This document shows, piece after piece, positions 5,193 through 9,592 of a stretch of DNA of 64,000 nucleotides. The stretch comes from Candidatus Competibacteraceae bacterium. GTDB lineage: Bacteria > Pseudomonadota > Gammaproteobacteria > Competibacterales > Competibacteraceae. Numbering within the stretch: the first letter of the stretch is position 1; each line of letters starts with the position of its first letter. The notes under the pieces are model-generated. The model made no database searches. It worked only from the letters and a program-made list of their open reading frames with translations, and was not told the DNA's origin. The stretch covers positions 62,001-126,000 of the forward strand of contig RXIV01000001.1 in the NCBI GenBank assembly GCA_003989085.1, in the 5' to 3' direction. The translations under genes were made by a program, and so were the position numbers.

Positions 5193-5561
5193 ATGGGCGG
5201 GTACGGAAGGCGGGTTTTGATTGCAACCCTGGCGGCGGCAGGCGTATCCACTGCGGTAGCCGACAGCCTGCGTTGCGGCAGTTATCTGGTGAATACCGGC
5301 GATTCGCAGTCGCGGGTCCGGCAAATTTGCGGCGATCCGCAAAGCGCCTGGCAGGACGGCTTTCTCGAAGAGACGGTGCGCCGCAGTGATGGTTATTACC
5401 CGGCCAATCCCTATCCGCCCCCATCAGGCTACGAAACCGAAACCCGCCGGATCATTCCGGTTTACAAATGGGAATACAGCCTGGGGCCGGGAACCTTCCT
5501 CAGAACCCTGGTGTTCCACGGCGATACTCTGGTCGACATTATCGACGGGCCGCGCCAGTAA
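5193..5561 (+). CDS. DUF2845-type exported protein
   Basis: A 122-residue protein with a signal peptide (RRVLIATLAAAGVSTAVADS, cleavage probably after AVA). The mature part LRCGSYLVNTGDSQSRVRQICGDP is the typical start of DUF2845 proteins. It contains two cysteines (in LRCG and QICGDP) that could form a disulfide. A Tyr/Pro-rich loop (YYPANPYPPPSGYE) precedes a beta-rich end. Function is unknown. It starts 16 bases after panC and converges with the nuclease gene at 5569, 7 bases away. Confidence 0.7.
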   Translation: MGGYGRRVLIATLAAAGVSTAVADSLRCGSYLVNTGDSQSRVRQICGDPQSAWQDGFLEETVRRSDGYYPANPYPPPSGYETETRRIIPVYKWEYSLGPGTFLRTLVFHGDTLVDIIDGPRQ

Positions 5562-5568
5562 GCAGCAT

Positions 5569-6762
5569 TCAACCAGCGCTGGTTGCCCCCAATGCCTCCA
5601 GCGCCGCCAGCACCTGCCGGGGTTCCAACTGGCCCTTGAAAAACAGCACCGGGCCGGGAATATCCTGAAAATCGGCTGCGCCGACATTCAACCGTTCCGA
5701 AACCGCCACGATCAGATCCGGCATCGCCGCCCGGCGCAGTTTATCCAGCTTGCGGCGCAGATAGTCGGGATGCCAAAAGCCCATGATCTCGATGTGCGCC
5801 ACCCGGCCATCCGGATGGCGCAGGGCAAAATCGGGAACGAACACCGTTCCCTTCAAATCAACGATGGACACCTCCCGCTCCAACACCCACGGCGTTCCTT
5901 GCTTTGCCCAGCGCGTGGCAAAGCGTTCCTCCAGCAAACTGTCATAAGCGGGCGGTGGCGCATCCAGCGAACGTAACGGTGATTGCGAATCGATTTGGTA
6001 ACGCAACTCCAGCCCATCCCGTTGCAATACCGCCTCCATCGCCCAACGACTGACCCGCAGCAACGCCGGCAGAAACATCGCCATTTGCAAACCGTATTTG
6101 CGGGTTTGCTTGAACAGGCTGGCCGGACCATCGACGTAAATTTGATAGCCGTCGTCCAGATGACCTTCGACCGCGTACATCAGGCCGTGAAACTTGAGAT
6201 GGCGGAATAGTCGCCGGTATTCGCCGGGGACATTGCGATGAGCGGTCAGGCGCAGATGCAGCGCCGAATACAGCAGACCTTGAGCCTGGGCCAGGTTGTA
6301 GCGATCAATCAACCGCTCCGGGGTGAATTCGGGCAACACGGTCAATCGGTGATTTTCCGGCAGATCGGCGTACAGGGCTTCACGTAAGGTTTCCGCTTCC
6401 AGTTGATAGCGCGGCGCGACTGCTTCCAGCACCGCCTGAGCCTGGGTTTCGCCATAACCGCCGCGTTCCGCCGCCAAGGTAAACAGTTCCCGTCGCAACA
6501 GCTCTGGTTGCAGATCGCCGGTTGCCAGGGTGAATTCAGCAGCGTTTAAGGCTAGATGGGCAAAGCCGCGCACGATACGGTAATCGGGCGAATCGCCCTC
6601 CAACGCCCGCAGCGCCGCCTGCAATTCACCTCGGCTGCGATGCTGATAGTCACGAATCAGATTGAGGACTTGTTCTGCCCAGACCTGCTGCTCACGTTTC
6701 AGGAAACGCGGGTAAACCTCGGCGCCGCGCCGGCGGGAGAAGAGGAGATCGGAGGGGAGCAT
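5569..6762 (-). CDS. DUF790/Bax1-family nuclease, partner of the XPB-like helicase
   Basis: A 397-residue protein of the DUF790 family, whose archaeal members are called Bax1 (binds archaeal XPB). It starts MLPSDLLFSRRRGAEVYPRF, typical of the family. The C-terminal PD-(D/E)xK-type nuclease core is visible: PDF at residues 310-312 (D311), then IEIMGFWHPDYLRRK with E325 and K338. It is translated from the same unit as the helicase at 6762-8255: the helicase stop and this start overlap as TGATG, so the two products are probably made in matched amounts. In archaea, XPB-Bax1 acts as a helicase-nuclease on bubble DNA in nucleotide excision repair. By analogy this pair probably processes damaged or branched DNA; that role is inference here. 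Confidence 0.85.
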   Translation of the reverse strand: MLPSDLLFSRRRGAEVYPRFLKREQQVWAEQVLNLIRDYQHRSRGELQAALRALEGDSPDYRIVRGFAHLALNAAEFTLATGDLQPELLRRELFTLAAERGGYGETQAQAVLEAVAPRYQLEAETLREALYADLPENHRLTVLPEFTPERLIDRYNLAQAQGLLYSALHLRLTAHRNVPGEYRRLFRHLKFHGLMYAVEGHLDDGYQIYVDGPASLFKQTRKYGLQMAMFLPALLRVSRWAMEAVLQRDGLELRYQIDSQSPLRSLDAPPPAYDSLLEERFATRWAKQGTPWVLEREVSIVDLKGTVFVPDFALRHPDGRVAHIEIMGFWHPDYLRRKLDKLRRAAMPDLIVAVSERLNVGAADFQDIPGPVLFFKGQLEPRQVLAALEALGATSAG

Positions 6763-8255
6763 CAGTGGTCGGGTTCAGAATCGGTGGTGCGCTGCGGATC
6801 GAACAGCGCCAACGTCGCTTCGATCCGTTCTGCTCGCTGGCTGGTGCCGGGCGCGATGCGGCGTCGTTCAGCGACCCGTTCCTCGCGAGTTTCACGAGCA
6901 ATCACTTCGTAAAGCACTGCTTTCTTGCCCTCGCCGCGCCGCAGAATCCGCCCCAATCGCTGGACAAACTCACGCACTGAGGCGCTGCCCGACAGAATGA
7001 CGCCAATTGAAGCATCCGGTACGTCCACACCCTCATTGAGCACGTTGCTGGCGACAATCGCCATGTAAACGCCTGTCTTGAATAAGTCGAGGATGGCCTG
7101 GCGCTCCTTGACGGCAGTCTGGTGACTCAGACAAGGGATCAGAAACCGTTGCGAGACTTCGTAGGCGGTGGCGTTATCCTCGGTGAAAATCACCGTTTTT
7201 ACGCCCGGATGATTAGCCAGAATCATGTCCAGCGTCCGTAGTTTGGCTGGGGTAGCGTGGGCAATACGCCGGGCAGTGCGATGGGCCAGCATGGCGCGGC
7301 GGCCTTCACTGCTGCGGGCCGAACACATCACGAACCGATTCCAGCCTTCCAGGGTGCCCAGGGAAATCTGTTGTGCCTGCAAAAAAGCATTGCGCTCATC
7401 CAGCGCCTGCTGATAGGCGGTGCGTTCAGCAGGAGCCAGATCGACGTGAATCGTCCTTAGCTGAAATTCGGCTAACGCGCCGCCGGCCAGTTGTTCCGGG
7501 CGCTTGCGGTAAATGATCGGGCCGATCAATTCCGGCAAGTCGGCGTCGCGTCCGTCGCTGCGTTCCGGTGTTGCCGTCAGGCCCAGTCGGTAGGGCGCGA
7601 GCGAAAATTCAGCGATAACCCGGTAAAACTCTGAAGGCAAATGGTGCGCCTCGTCGAAAATCAGCAGGCCAAACCGGTCGCCCAGCCGCTCAATATGGCG
7701 GGCGGCGGAGTCGTAAGTCGCGATGGTCAGCGGTTGCGGTTCGTGATAACCACCGCCGATCAGGCCAATTTCCTGATCCGGGAATGCGGCTCGCAACAGC
7801 GCATACCACTGTTGCATCAGGTCGAGGGTGGGAACCAGCACCAGCCCATCCCGCTGCGCCCAACGCAGCGCCAGTAGTCCGACCAGCGTTTTACCCGCCC
7901 CGGTCGGCAATGCGACGACGCCGCGACCTCGCGCTGCCTGCCAGGCCGCCAGCGCCTCCTGTTGATGTGGATAGGGCGTCATCTCCAGCGCGCAAACCAG
8001 CTCCCGGCGCTGGTAACGCGGGGCGCGATTGCCGGCCAGTTTCCCCTTGAGTGGGCCAATCACCGCACTGTAGCAATGGGCCGGAGCGCGGTAGGCGTCT
8101 ACTCGCGGATCGTACTGGAACCAAACATCCAGGCCCGCTGGCAGTTCGGCGACACCTTCCAGCAGCAGGGTGCCCCGGTCGAAACGTAACCGACGAACCG
8201 ACTCAACATGGCCTGTATGGTAAAGACCCGGCGCATCACGGGTGCCGTGGTTCAT
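6762..8255 (-). CDS. XPB/Rad25-family DNA helicase (SF2)
   Basis: A 497-residue superfamily 2 helicase. An N-terminal damage-recognition-like region (residues 1-90) is followed by Walker A LPTGAGKT (116-123), DEAH (201-204), TATP (227-230), and motif VI QRLGRILRRG (432-441). The stretch after TATP aligns with XPB: human XPB has the RED motif there, but this protein reads R232-S233-D234. LIGPIIYRKRPEQLAGG fits the XPB block after RED. The C-terminus is Arg-rich. The pairing with a DUF790 nuclease supports the XPB rather than a generic DEAH assignment. ATG 8255 has no strong Shine-Dalgarno. It begins 17 bases downstream of the carboxypeptidase gene and may be co-transcribed with it. Confidence 0.88.
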   Translation of the reverse strand: MNHGTRDAPGLYHTGHVESVRRLRFDRGTLLLEGVAELPAGLDVWFQYDPRVDAYRAPAHCYSAVIGPLKGKLAGNRAPRYQRRELVCALEMTPYPHQQEALAAWQAARGRGVVALPTGAGKTLVGLLALRWAQRDGLVLVPTLDLMQQWYALLRAAFPDQEIGLIGGGYHEPQPLTIATYDSAARHIERLGDRFGLLIFDEAHHLPSEFYRVIAEFSLAPYRLGLTATPERSDGRDADLPELIGPIIYRKRPEQLAGGALAEFQLRTIHVDLAPAERTAYQQALDERNAFLQAQQISLGTLEGWNRFVMCSARSSEGRRAMLAHRTARRIAHATPAKLRTLDMILANHPGVKTVIFTEDNATAYEVSQRFLIPCLSHQTAVKERQAILDLFKTGVYMAIVASNVLNEGVDVPDASIGVILSGSASVREFVQRLGRILRRGEGKKAVLYEVIARETREERVAERRRIAPGTSQRAERIEATLALFDPQRTTDSEPDH

Positions 8256-8272: not shown

Positions 8273-9592
8273 TTAGATCCGTGGCTTCATATTTTTCGAT
8301 TTACCGGCGCTTGGTTCAACGCGGGCAGCGACCTTGGCAATAGGCGGTTTATTCGCTTTGCTGGTAGGAATTACCGCTGGTTTGCCTTTGGAACGGGCCG
8401 TCGCCGCTGCTTTGCTCTTCGGATTCGCCACTGCCAGGGCTACCGGTTTGCCCGGTTGACTCTGACGTTTGCCTGCCGTTGGTTGGGTTTTTGTTAGCGC
8501 TAATCTGCCCGGAGTCGCCTTGGCCTTGGCGGCTGCTTTTGGGCGGCTGGGACGCACAAGGACGTTATCGTTATCGTTATCGTCGTCGTCATTTGCTGCT
8601 GCCGCCCGGTTTCGTTGTCCGTTTGGTGACCGGATCATAGACGCTGGCACGGCGGATGACTCCGTCCGGGCCATGCGTAACATCGGTTCCGGCAGGACGG
8701 GTGGCGGTGGGGCCAACCCATAATGGGCAAAGCCATAGTCAAGCAGAGTGCGGGCATCCTGCCACAGCGCACCCCGGCTGGGGCTGTTTAAAACCGCCAC
8801 AATCAGCGGGATGCCGCCACGGTCAACCTCACCAACAAAACAGTGTCTGGCCTTGAAAGTGAACCCGGTCTTGCCGCCGCGTGAGCCTTCATAAGACGCT
8901 AGCAATCGGTTATGGCTGACCACCGGCACCAGTCGCGCATTGTCGTAAGCGCCTTGCCCCGATTCGATCCGCAATGCAGCGCTGTGTGTGGCGATAATAT
9001 CGGAAAAGAGCGGATAGTGAATTGCCTGGCGGAAAATGAGCGCCAGATCGTAAGCAGTCGAGTAGTGGTCATCATTGGGCAAACCGTGCGGATTCATGAA
9101 ATGGCTATTGCGTGCGCCAATCTGTAGCGCCTTGGCGTTCATCAATTCGGCAAAACCGGGAATTGAACCGCCTGCCGCTTCGGCCAAGGTTTCAGCGGCG
9201 TCATTACCGGATTTCAGCAGCAGGCCATACAGTAAATCCTGGGTCAGGGCGGCATCTCCGGGATGTAGCCCAACACGACTGGGTGGGGCGCCCGCCGCTT
9301 GTGGACTGACCAGCACCCGCGCATTTGGATCGAGTCGATCCATGACCACCAGTGCTGTTAATACCTTGGTGGTGCTGGCGGGCGGCAGGCGCAAATGTGG
9401 TTCTTTGGCGAACAGGATTTCACCGGTAGCGGGGTTCATCAGCACCGCAGCACGGGCAGCCACGGTAGGTGGGGCAGACGCTCCGGTTTCCTGCCCGAGC
9501 GCAGAACCGGTCGCCCCGCACAACGCTATGCTCAGTAACCAGATTGGCAATGGCCCAAAGCCCAGCTTGCCCAAAAAAAACCTCGAAAACAT
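8273..9592 (-). CDS. penicillin-binding D-alanyl-D-alanine carboxypeptidase (PBP5/DacA-like) with a long charged tail
   Basis: A peptidase S11 enzyme that trims the terminal D-Ala from peptidoglycan stems in the periplasm. It has a signal peptide (PLPIWLLSIALCGATGSALG), the active-site S73-x-x-K76 (PASTTKVL), S128-G-N130 (LKSGNDAAE) and K241-T-G (GGKTGFTF). Catalytic homology ends near residue 310. The remaining ~130 residues are low complexity: a D/N tract around residues 334-343, then a Lys/Ala/Pro-rich basic region. This is not the amphipathic membrane anchor usual for PBP5, so attachment may be through polyanion or peptidoglycan binding (inference). Length is 439 residues against about 400 for the family. 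Confidence 0.88.
   Translation of the reverse strand: MFSRFFLGKLGFGPLPIWLLSIALCGATGSALGQETGASAPPTVAARAAVLMNPATGEILFAKEPHLRLPPASTTKVLTALVVMDRLDPNARVLVSPQAAGAPPSRVGLHPGDAALTQDLLYGLLLKSGNDAAETLAEAAGGSIPGFAELMNAKALQIGARNSHFMNPHGLPNDDHYSTAYDLALIFRQAIHYPLFSDIIATHSAALRIESGQGAYDNARLVPVVSHNRLLASYEGSRGGKTGFTFKARHCFVGEVDRGGIPLIVAVLNSPSRGALWQDARTLLDYGFAHYGLAPPPPVLPEPMLRMARTESSAVPASMIRSPNGQRNRAAAANDDDDNDNDNVLVRPSRPKAAAKAKATPGRLALTKTQPTAGKRQSQPGKPVALAVANPKSKAAATARSKGKPAVIPTSKANKPPIAKVAARVEPSAGKSKNMKPRI

Follow-up and report, generated by a model that had tools for sequence, protein, structure and literature searches.

Two genes encoded side by side in a Candidatus Competibacteraceae genome correspond, by sequence and predicted fold, to the archaeal helicase–nuclease pair XPB–Bax1, and their products probably form a complex of that kind, which would serve as an accessory bubble/fork nuclease for DNA lesions or stuck intermediates. 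The window, as the whole stretch of DNA that was analysed is called here (64,000 nucleotides), belongs to a sewage-type gammaproteobacterium of the Competibacteraceae type. The closest relative with a name, a Candidatus Contendobacter MAG, has a Bax1 that is 97% identical; more generally, the nearest named relatives are Candidatus Contendobacter and Competibacter MAGs. The kind of complex is already known; its bacterial distribution is informative and under-described. A nuclease survey of 2005 assigned DUF790 almost exclusively to Archaea and Cyanobacteria, and a 2012 study of the Mycobacterium tuberculosis XPB stated that no XPB–Bax1 complex was known from bacteria at that time (PMC3353954); neither a treatment of bacterial XPB–Bax1 pairs nor an experiment on one was found in the open-licence literature. 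The complex has been described as archaeal; the carriers seen here include mesophilic bacteria, some of them culturable (Deinococcus, Calidithermus), and bacterial carriers allow tests of XPB–Bax1 action in cells that also hold UvrABC.

The gene pair and its products

The features referred to below are the following:

8273-9592, minus strand (the same as xpb): D-Ala-D-Ala carboxypeptidase gene (Peptidase_S11), upstream of xpb; from Pfam
8255-6762, minus strand: xpb, AfXPB-type helicase, 497 aa; from the ORF, Pfam, PDB sequence matches and predicted fold
7554-7562, minus strand: RED motif position of xpb, R232-S233-D234; from an alignment of 96 XPBs
6760-6764, minus strand: junction TGATG, the xpb stop TGA and the bax1 start ATG with one base in common
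6762-5569, minus strand: bax1, DUF790/Bax1 nuclease, 397 aa; from the ORF, Pfam, PDB sequence matches and predicted fold
5193-5561, plus strand: DUF2845 gene, convergent to bax1 and its steady neighbour in Competibacteraceae; from Pfam

The open reading frames bear out an earlier note on this DNA, which had described an XPB-type SF2 helicase gene and a DUF790 gene overlapping by one base. The Peptidase_S11 gene ends 17 bases before xpb, an adjacency repeated in a sister MAG (L061), and is not known as a functional partner. The neighbourhood of the pair consists of housekeeping genes, and no defence system was found among its neighbours in the window. With GC contents of 0.615 (xpb) and 0.598 (bax1), the two genes resemble the neighbouring genes in both GC and GC3, and a recent acquisition traceable by composition was rejected on these grounds.

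The helicase contains the Pfam domains XPB_DRD (PF18458; 42.3 bits against a cut-off of 26), ResIII, Helicase_C and ERCC3_RAD25_C. Its best PDB sequence matches are AfXPB from A. fulgidus (345 bits) and StXPB2 from S. tokodaii (312 bits), and the best PDB matches of its AlphaFold model (pLDDT 86) are all StXPB or AfXPB, with TM scores of 0.74/0.84 to the XPB of an XPB–Bax1–forked DNA complex (6p4f_C). The chain is built of a damage-recognition domain (DRD), helicase domain 1, which includes the RED position, the thumb (ThM) and helicase domain 2, in that order. The SF2 motifs I, II and VI are whole (K122; D201/E202; Q432/R433/R436/R439), as the earlier note had read for Walker A, DEAH and motif VI. 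The long thumb is a helical insertion at residues ~275-333 and bears an aromatic wedge, Trp305, at the position of StXPB F278, which is Trp in 46 of 46 bacterial rows and Phe or Tyr in 46 of 47 archaeal rows. Sequence and model together place xpb with the archaeal-type (AfXPB/StXPB2) XPBs. Identity with the Mycobacterium/human type was rejected, the score against NCBIfam NF045503 being 199 bits for a cut-off of 610 and this type forming the outgroup in the tree. Mycobacterium-type bacterial XPB (PMC3353954; NF045503) has the SF2 core with R-x-D in common with the window protein, but differs in an N-terminal domain of its own and in the absence of the thumb.

The nuclease scores 408.5 bits with Pfam DUF790 (PF05626; cut-off 28.8), the match spanning the entire profile from position 1 to position 387, and its PDB sequence matches are AfBax1 from A. 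fulgidus (164 bits), PfBax1 from P. furiosus and StBax1 from S. tokodaii. Only Bax1 chains match its AlphaFold model (pLDDT 87) at E < 0.001; the eight best matches are all Bax1, with TM scores of 0.74/0.78 to PfBax1 (8gy8). Against the NCBIfam Bax1 equivalogs the protein scores 203.6 and 167.2 bits, below the cut-off of 500 of these models, which are named for archaeal subgroups. The PDF and IE...K motifs that the earlier note had recognized are seen in the alignment as D311, E325 and K338/K341, and the nuclease-domain acids of AfBax1 (E275, D305 and E318) are retained as E279, D311 and E325; E278, beside E279, is the more constant of the two. In AfBax1, Asp133 and Glu135 reportedly belong to a second nuclease site, located N-terminally. 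The former is kept in the window protein and the latter is replaced by Pro, as in 29 of 29 Competibacteraceae, this position being acidic in one of 51 bacterial and in 52 of 55 archaeal rows. Possibly, only one nuclease site of the window Bax1 works.

Structure comparison left the helicase within XPB and the DUF790 protein with a nuclease fold, and the identification of the pair as XPB and Bax1, put forward in the earlier note, is backed by the sequences, domains and predicted folds of both proteins. The archaeal complexes (A. fulgidus 6p66; S. tokodaii 6p4f, 6p4o and 6p4w) and the window pair have in common two full-length proteins, the DRD, the thumb, the R-x-D of RED, the nuclease-domain acids and the usual gene order xpb–bax1. 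The window differs in Ser as the middle residue of RED, Trp for Phe at the wedge, His at the thumb position of W298, Pro in place of Glu135 of the proposed second site, a Bax1 without the long C-terminal domain of AfBax1 (397 against 468 aa) and a host that has UvrB.

Proposed role and relatives in other phyla

Archaeal structures contain XPB on a ds-ss DNA junction, with the strands split by the thumb and the RED residues at the junction, and Bax1 tethered via its N-terminal domain, with the nuclease domain brought to one arm (PMC7293015, PMC7672443). What was observed here concerns gene anatomy, family membership, folds, co-retention and tree congruence; complex formation, unwinding and cleavage by the window pair are proposed by analogy with the archaeal biochemistry. 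XPB would bind a ds-ss junction, with thumb Trp305 as the wedge and R232 and D234 touching the junction, and with ATP would open a bubble or fork. It would also hold Bax1, and the PD-(D/E)XK-like nuclease domain of the latter (D311, E325) would cut one strand close to the junction. In a UvrB-bearing host, the pair would supplement UvrABC in dealing with DNA lesions or stuck intermediates. Changes at StBax1 R86-R87 and L89-F90 weaken the XPB–Bax1 complex, and these positions are R-R and L-F in the window Bax1; on the helicase side, StXPB E357 is retained and E360 is replaced by Ala. Better conservation of the whole interface was not found on comparison with the rest of the domains.

The host encodes UvrB (1068 bits), so that XPB–Bax1 is not the sole excision-repair route there, and archaeal XPB mutants, including those of S. 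islandicus, are barely damage-sensitive (PMC7776575). In view of both facts, the preferred assignment, made with moderate confidence, is an auxiliary one: the pair would act in repair at bubbles or forks and would not be the main excision-repair system. The repair or genome-surveillance module suggested in the earlier note is plausible as regards DNA repair, and has to be qualified in that UvrB provides for another route. In favour of a repair pair are the full-length homology to a solved complex, the matching folds, the catalytic motifs, the close same-strand genes in most adjacent relatives and, on plasmid P1 of Deinococcus gobiensis (L142:1501-4014), a spore photoproduct lyase family gene directly upstream of xpb-bax1. 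Against it stand the archaeal XPB mutants, the UvrB of the host, the unexceptional conservation of the interface and the accessory, plasmid-borne and patchy distribution, which also fits other roles.

Beyond the family, Bax1 identity to the window is highest in Acidobacteriota (Blastocatellia; 59%) and Calidithermus chliarophilus (58%), and amounts to 39-44% on Deinococcus plasmids, 37% in Chloracidobacterium and a Bradymonadales MAG, and ~34% on haloarchaeal plasmids, followed by archaeal chromosomes. The Bax1 and XPB trees agree in the main, and the pairwise distances of the two proteins are correlated over 76 loci (r = 0.93). The Competibacteraceae form one clade in both (100/99 for XPB and 100/100 for Bax1), beside Acidobacteriota and Thermaceae; Deinococcus plasmids come next, and haloarchaeal plasmid pairs lie close by. 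The bacteria and the haloarchaeal plasmid copies make up one supported group. The patchy spread over distant phyla and the congruent trees suggest that the two genes were transferred laterally together, and their composition would have been ameliorated afterwards. The pairs of Deinococcus plasmids, Thermaceae and Acidobacteriota, which fall in the same clade as the window in both trees, have adjacent genes, the Trp wedge and R-S/A/L/G-D; they differ in their 37-59% (Bax1) and ~49-65% (XPB) identity to the window and, in the Deinococcus records, in being plasmid-borne. No study of them was found in the open-licence literature; they are annotated in sequence records, and those of plasmids label such pairs 'DEAD/DEAH box helicase' and 'DUF790'. 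The two genes overlap by 14 bases in most of the Deinococcus and haloarchaeal plasmids examined, and no conserved third partner gene was found across these plasmids; in Competibacteraceae only DUF2845 accompanies bax1. In some Archaeoglobaceae and other archaea (L096, L103, L109 and L116), xpb and bax1 are disposed head-to-head instead of in tandem.

A separate Pseudomonadota class, that of genome G315 (48 genomes), has a divergent XPB–Bax1 pair, usually adjacent (L149-L159). Its high-quality genomes contain XPB in 27 of 27 cases and Bax1 in 26 of 27, a near-universal presence as expected of a maintenance function. In the Bax1 nuclease motif of this class, E-L/M-F-H-R-W stands in place of E-I-x-G-F-W; K338 is exchanged for R, and K341 is missing. 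Tentatively, the bacterial XPB–Bax1 might represent a branch of its own, which plasmids have distributed among phyla and haloarchaea and which is core in one whole Pseudomonadota class; with a single nuclease site and a Trp wedge, it would provide an overlooked UvrABC-independent excision-type route.

The chief rival to a repair role is defence, the pair being an anti-phage/anti-plasmid system in which the helicase would find foreign DNA structures and Bax1 would cut. Its accessory status in Competibacteraceae and its location on plasmids in Deinococcus and haloarchaea would suit such a system, as would the restriction-modification, TnpB or transposase genes that adjoin some plasmid pairs, and among the PADLOC helicase models PbeA comes nearest (172.8 bits). 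However, this match is limited to the helicase core, which is related to that of PbeA/Dnd-type restriction helicases, whereas the window pair has other domains and does not have their partner genes. Bax1 has no PADLOC match, and of seven proteins encoded nearby in the window the TrmB methyltransferase alone gave one, partial and of 43 bits, to mad2, which is read as family likeness. The housekeeping surroundings of the pair also argue against defence, and its class-wide core status in the G315 class speaks for maintenance. Finally, no Bax1 was found in IMG/VR contigs or GenBank phages, on which ground a phage or viral origin of the pair was rejected as well. Altogether, a defence function appears unlikely, and an auxiliary role in repair is preferred.

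Occurrence and linkage in Gammaproteobacteria

DUF790 and AfXPB-type XPB were mapped among 274 sampled Gammaproteobacteria, as the earlier note had proposed, and each was detected solely in the window's own genus (3 genomes). Within the order of the window (40 genomes), both genes are present in 24, only Bax1 in 3, only XPB in 1 and neither in 12, a co-occurrence with a Fisher value of 9.5e-7, which treats genomes as independent and is uncorrected for relatedness. The Bax1-only genomes are 58-83% complete; genomes of at least 90% completeness comprise 19 with both genes, none with only Bax1, one with only XPB and 6 with neither.

Adjacent Competibacteraceae pairs have short overlaps or small gaps. 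The two genes lie on different contigs in nine genomes of the order, in one of which (G199) Bax1 is found at the contig edge, so that a contig break is possible there. In the unlinked genomes Bax1 often remains beside the convergent DUF2845, XPB being relocated; in G278, XPB retains the upstream neighbour of linked genomes, and there it is therefore Bax1 that moved. The flanks point to several separate relocations. These unlinked genes, the 12 of 40 genomes without both of them, and the stops or frameshifts in xpb and/or bax1 of three genomes (G286, G287 and G289; L026-L028, L033 and L053) would agree with two proteins that act separately, or with laterally acquired passengers that are being lost. 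The broken copies may reflect decay or MAG assembly errors, but the joint retention after unlinking (19 genomes to none and one, as above), the intact catalytic residues and the correlated divergence of XPB and Bax1 make this explanation quite improbable. Of all the evidence, joint retention after unlinking argues most strongly for a shared function, and the pair is a co-retained lineage trait of the host family, in which tight gene coupling is not general.

Two relatives (L061:5400-6001 and L071:5432-6001) have ~450-600 bases between xpb and bax1, and the C-terminus of xpb differs too. Within the window's genus (compared with L002, L012, L032 and L034), XPB is less conserved (88-92% identity) than Bax1 (95-97%), and across the family both are at ~80-87%. 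MAGs titled Phycisphaerales and Synechococcaceae (L077 and L087) hold a Competibacteraceae bax1, 83-88% identical, and are probably mislabelled or mixed bins.

Variation at the RED motif

Residues 232-234 of the window XPB are R-S-D, as the earlier note had read them. They were compared in an alignment of 112 sequences from the fetched loci, reduced to 96 without identical rows and including three Mycobacterium-like ones. The R and D are the same in all 96 XPBs. The middle residue is variable: S in 25, G in 8, A in 6, T in 4, L in 2 and E in 1 of the 46 bacterial Bax1-type rows, and E in 31, D in 7, V in 3, P in 2, S in 2, T in 1 and A in 1 of the 47 archaeal rows. This letter changes at least 19 times on a 56-row XPB tree and, given this and the survey, the reading of RED as specially altered was rejected. 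In the S. tokodaii XPB that was crystallised together with Bax1 and forked DNA, the residues are R205-D206-D207, named the RED motif by the authors of that structure (PMC7672443). The window protein has the R and D and, with Ser233, not the Glu, which is not defining for the kind because StXPB2 (Asp) and many archaeal members are also without it. Ser is the commonest state among the bacterial members seen and does not mark altered function. By sequence, RSD appears to be ordinary variation and not a peculiarity of the window helicase, and the survey corrects the view of the RED Glu as an XPB constant.

The earlier note's suggestion that the Glu-to-Ser change specifically alters unwinding is thus very unlikely to hold, since, although StXPB D206 at the equivalent position touches an unpaired base and an StXPB RED-to-AAA triple mutant has weaker binding and hydrolysis, this mutant took away all three charges (PMC7672443), and the middle position is free, being S, G, A, T or L in 45 of 46 bacterial rows, other than Glu in 16 of 47 archaeal rows and Asp in StXPB itself, with R and D constant. 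The Trp wedge and the lost Bax1 acid are, in the alignments, steadier differences between bacterial and archaeal members than the middle residue of RED.

A homologue resembling the Mycobacterium-type XPB is found as a second, separate gene in some Competibacteraceae (G307, G298 and G286; L056, L059 and L060). It is an open frame of ~570 aa, distantly related to the window XPB (~30% identity); its RED is intact, and the position of the thumb wedge is a gap.
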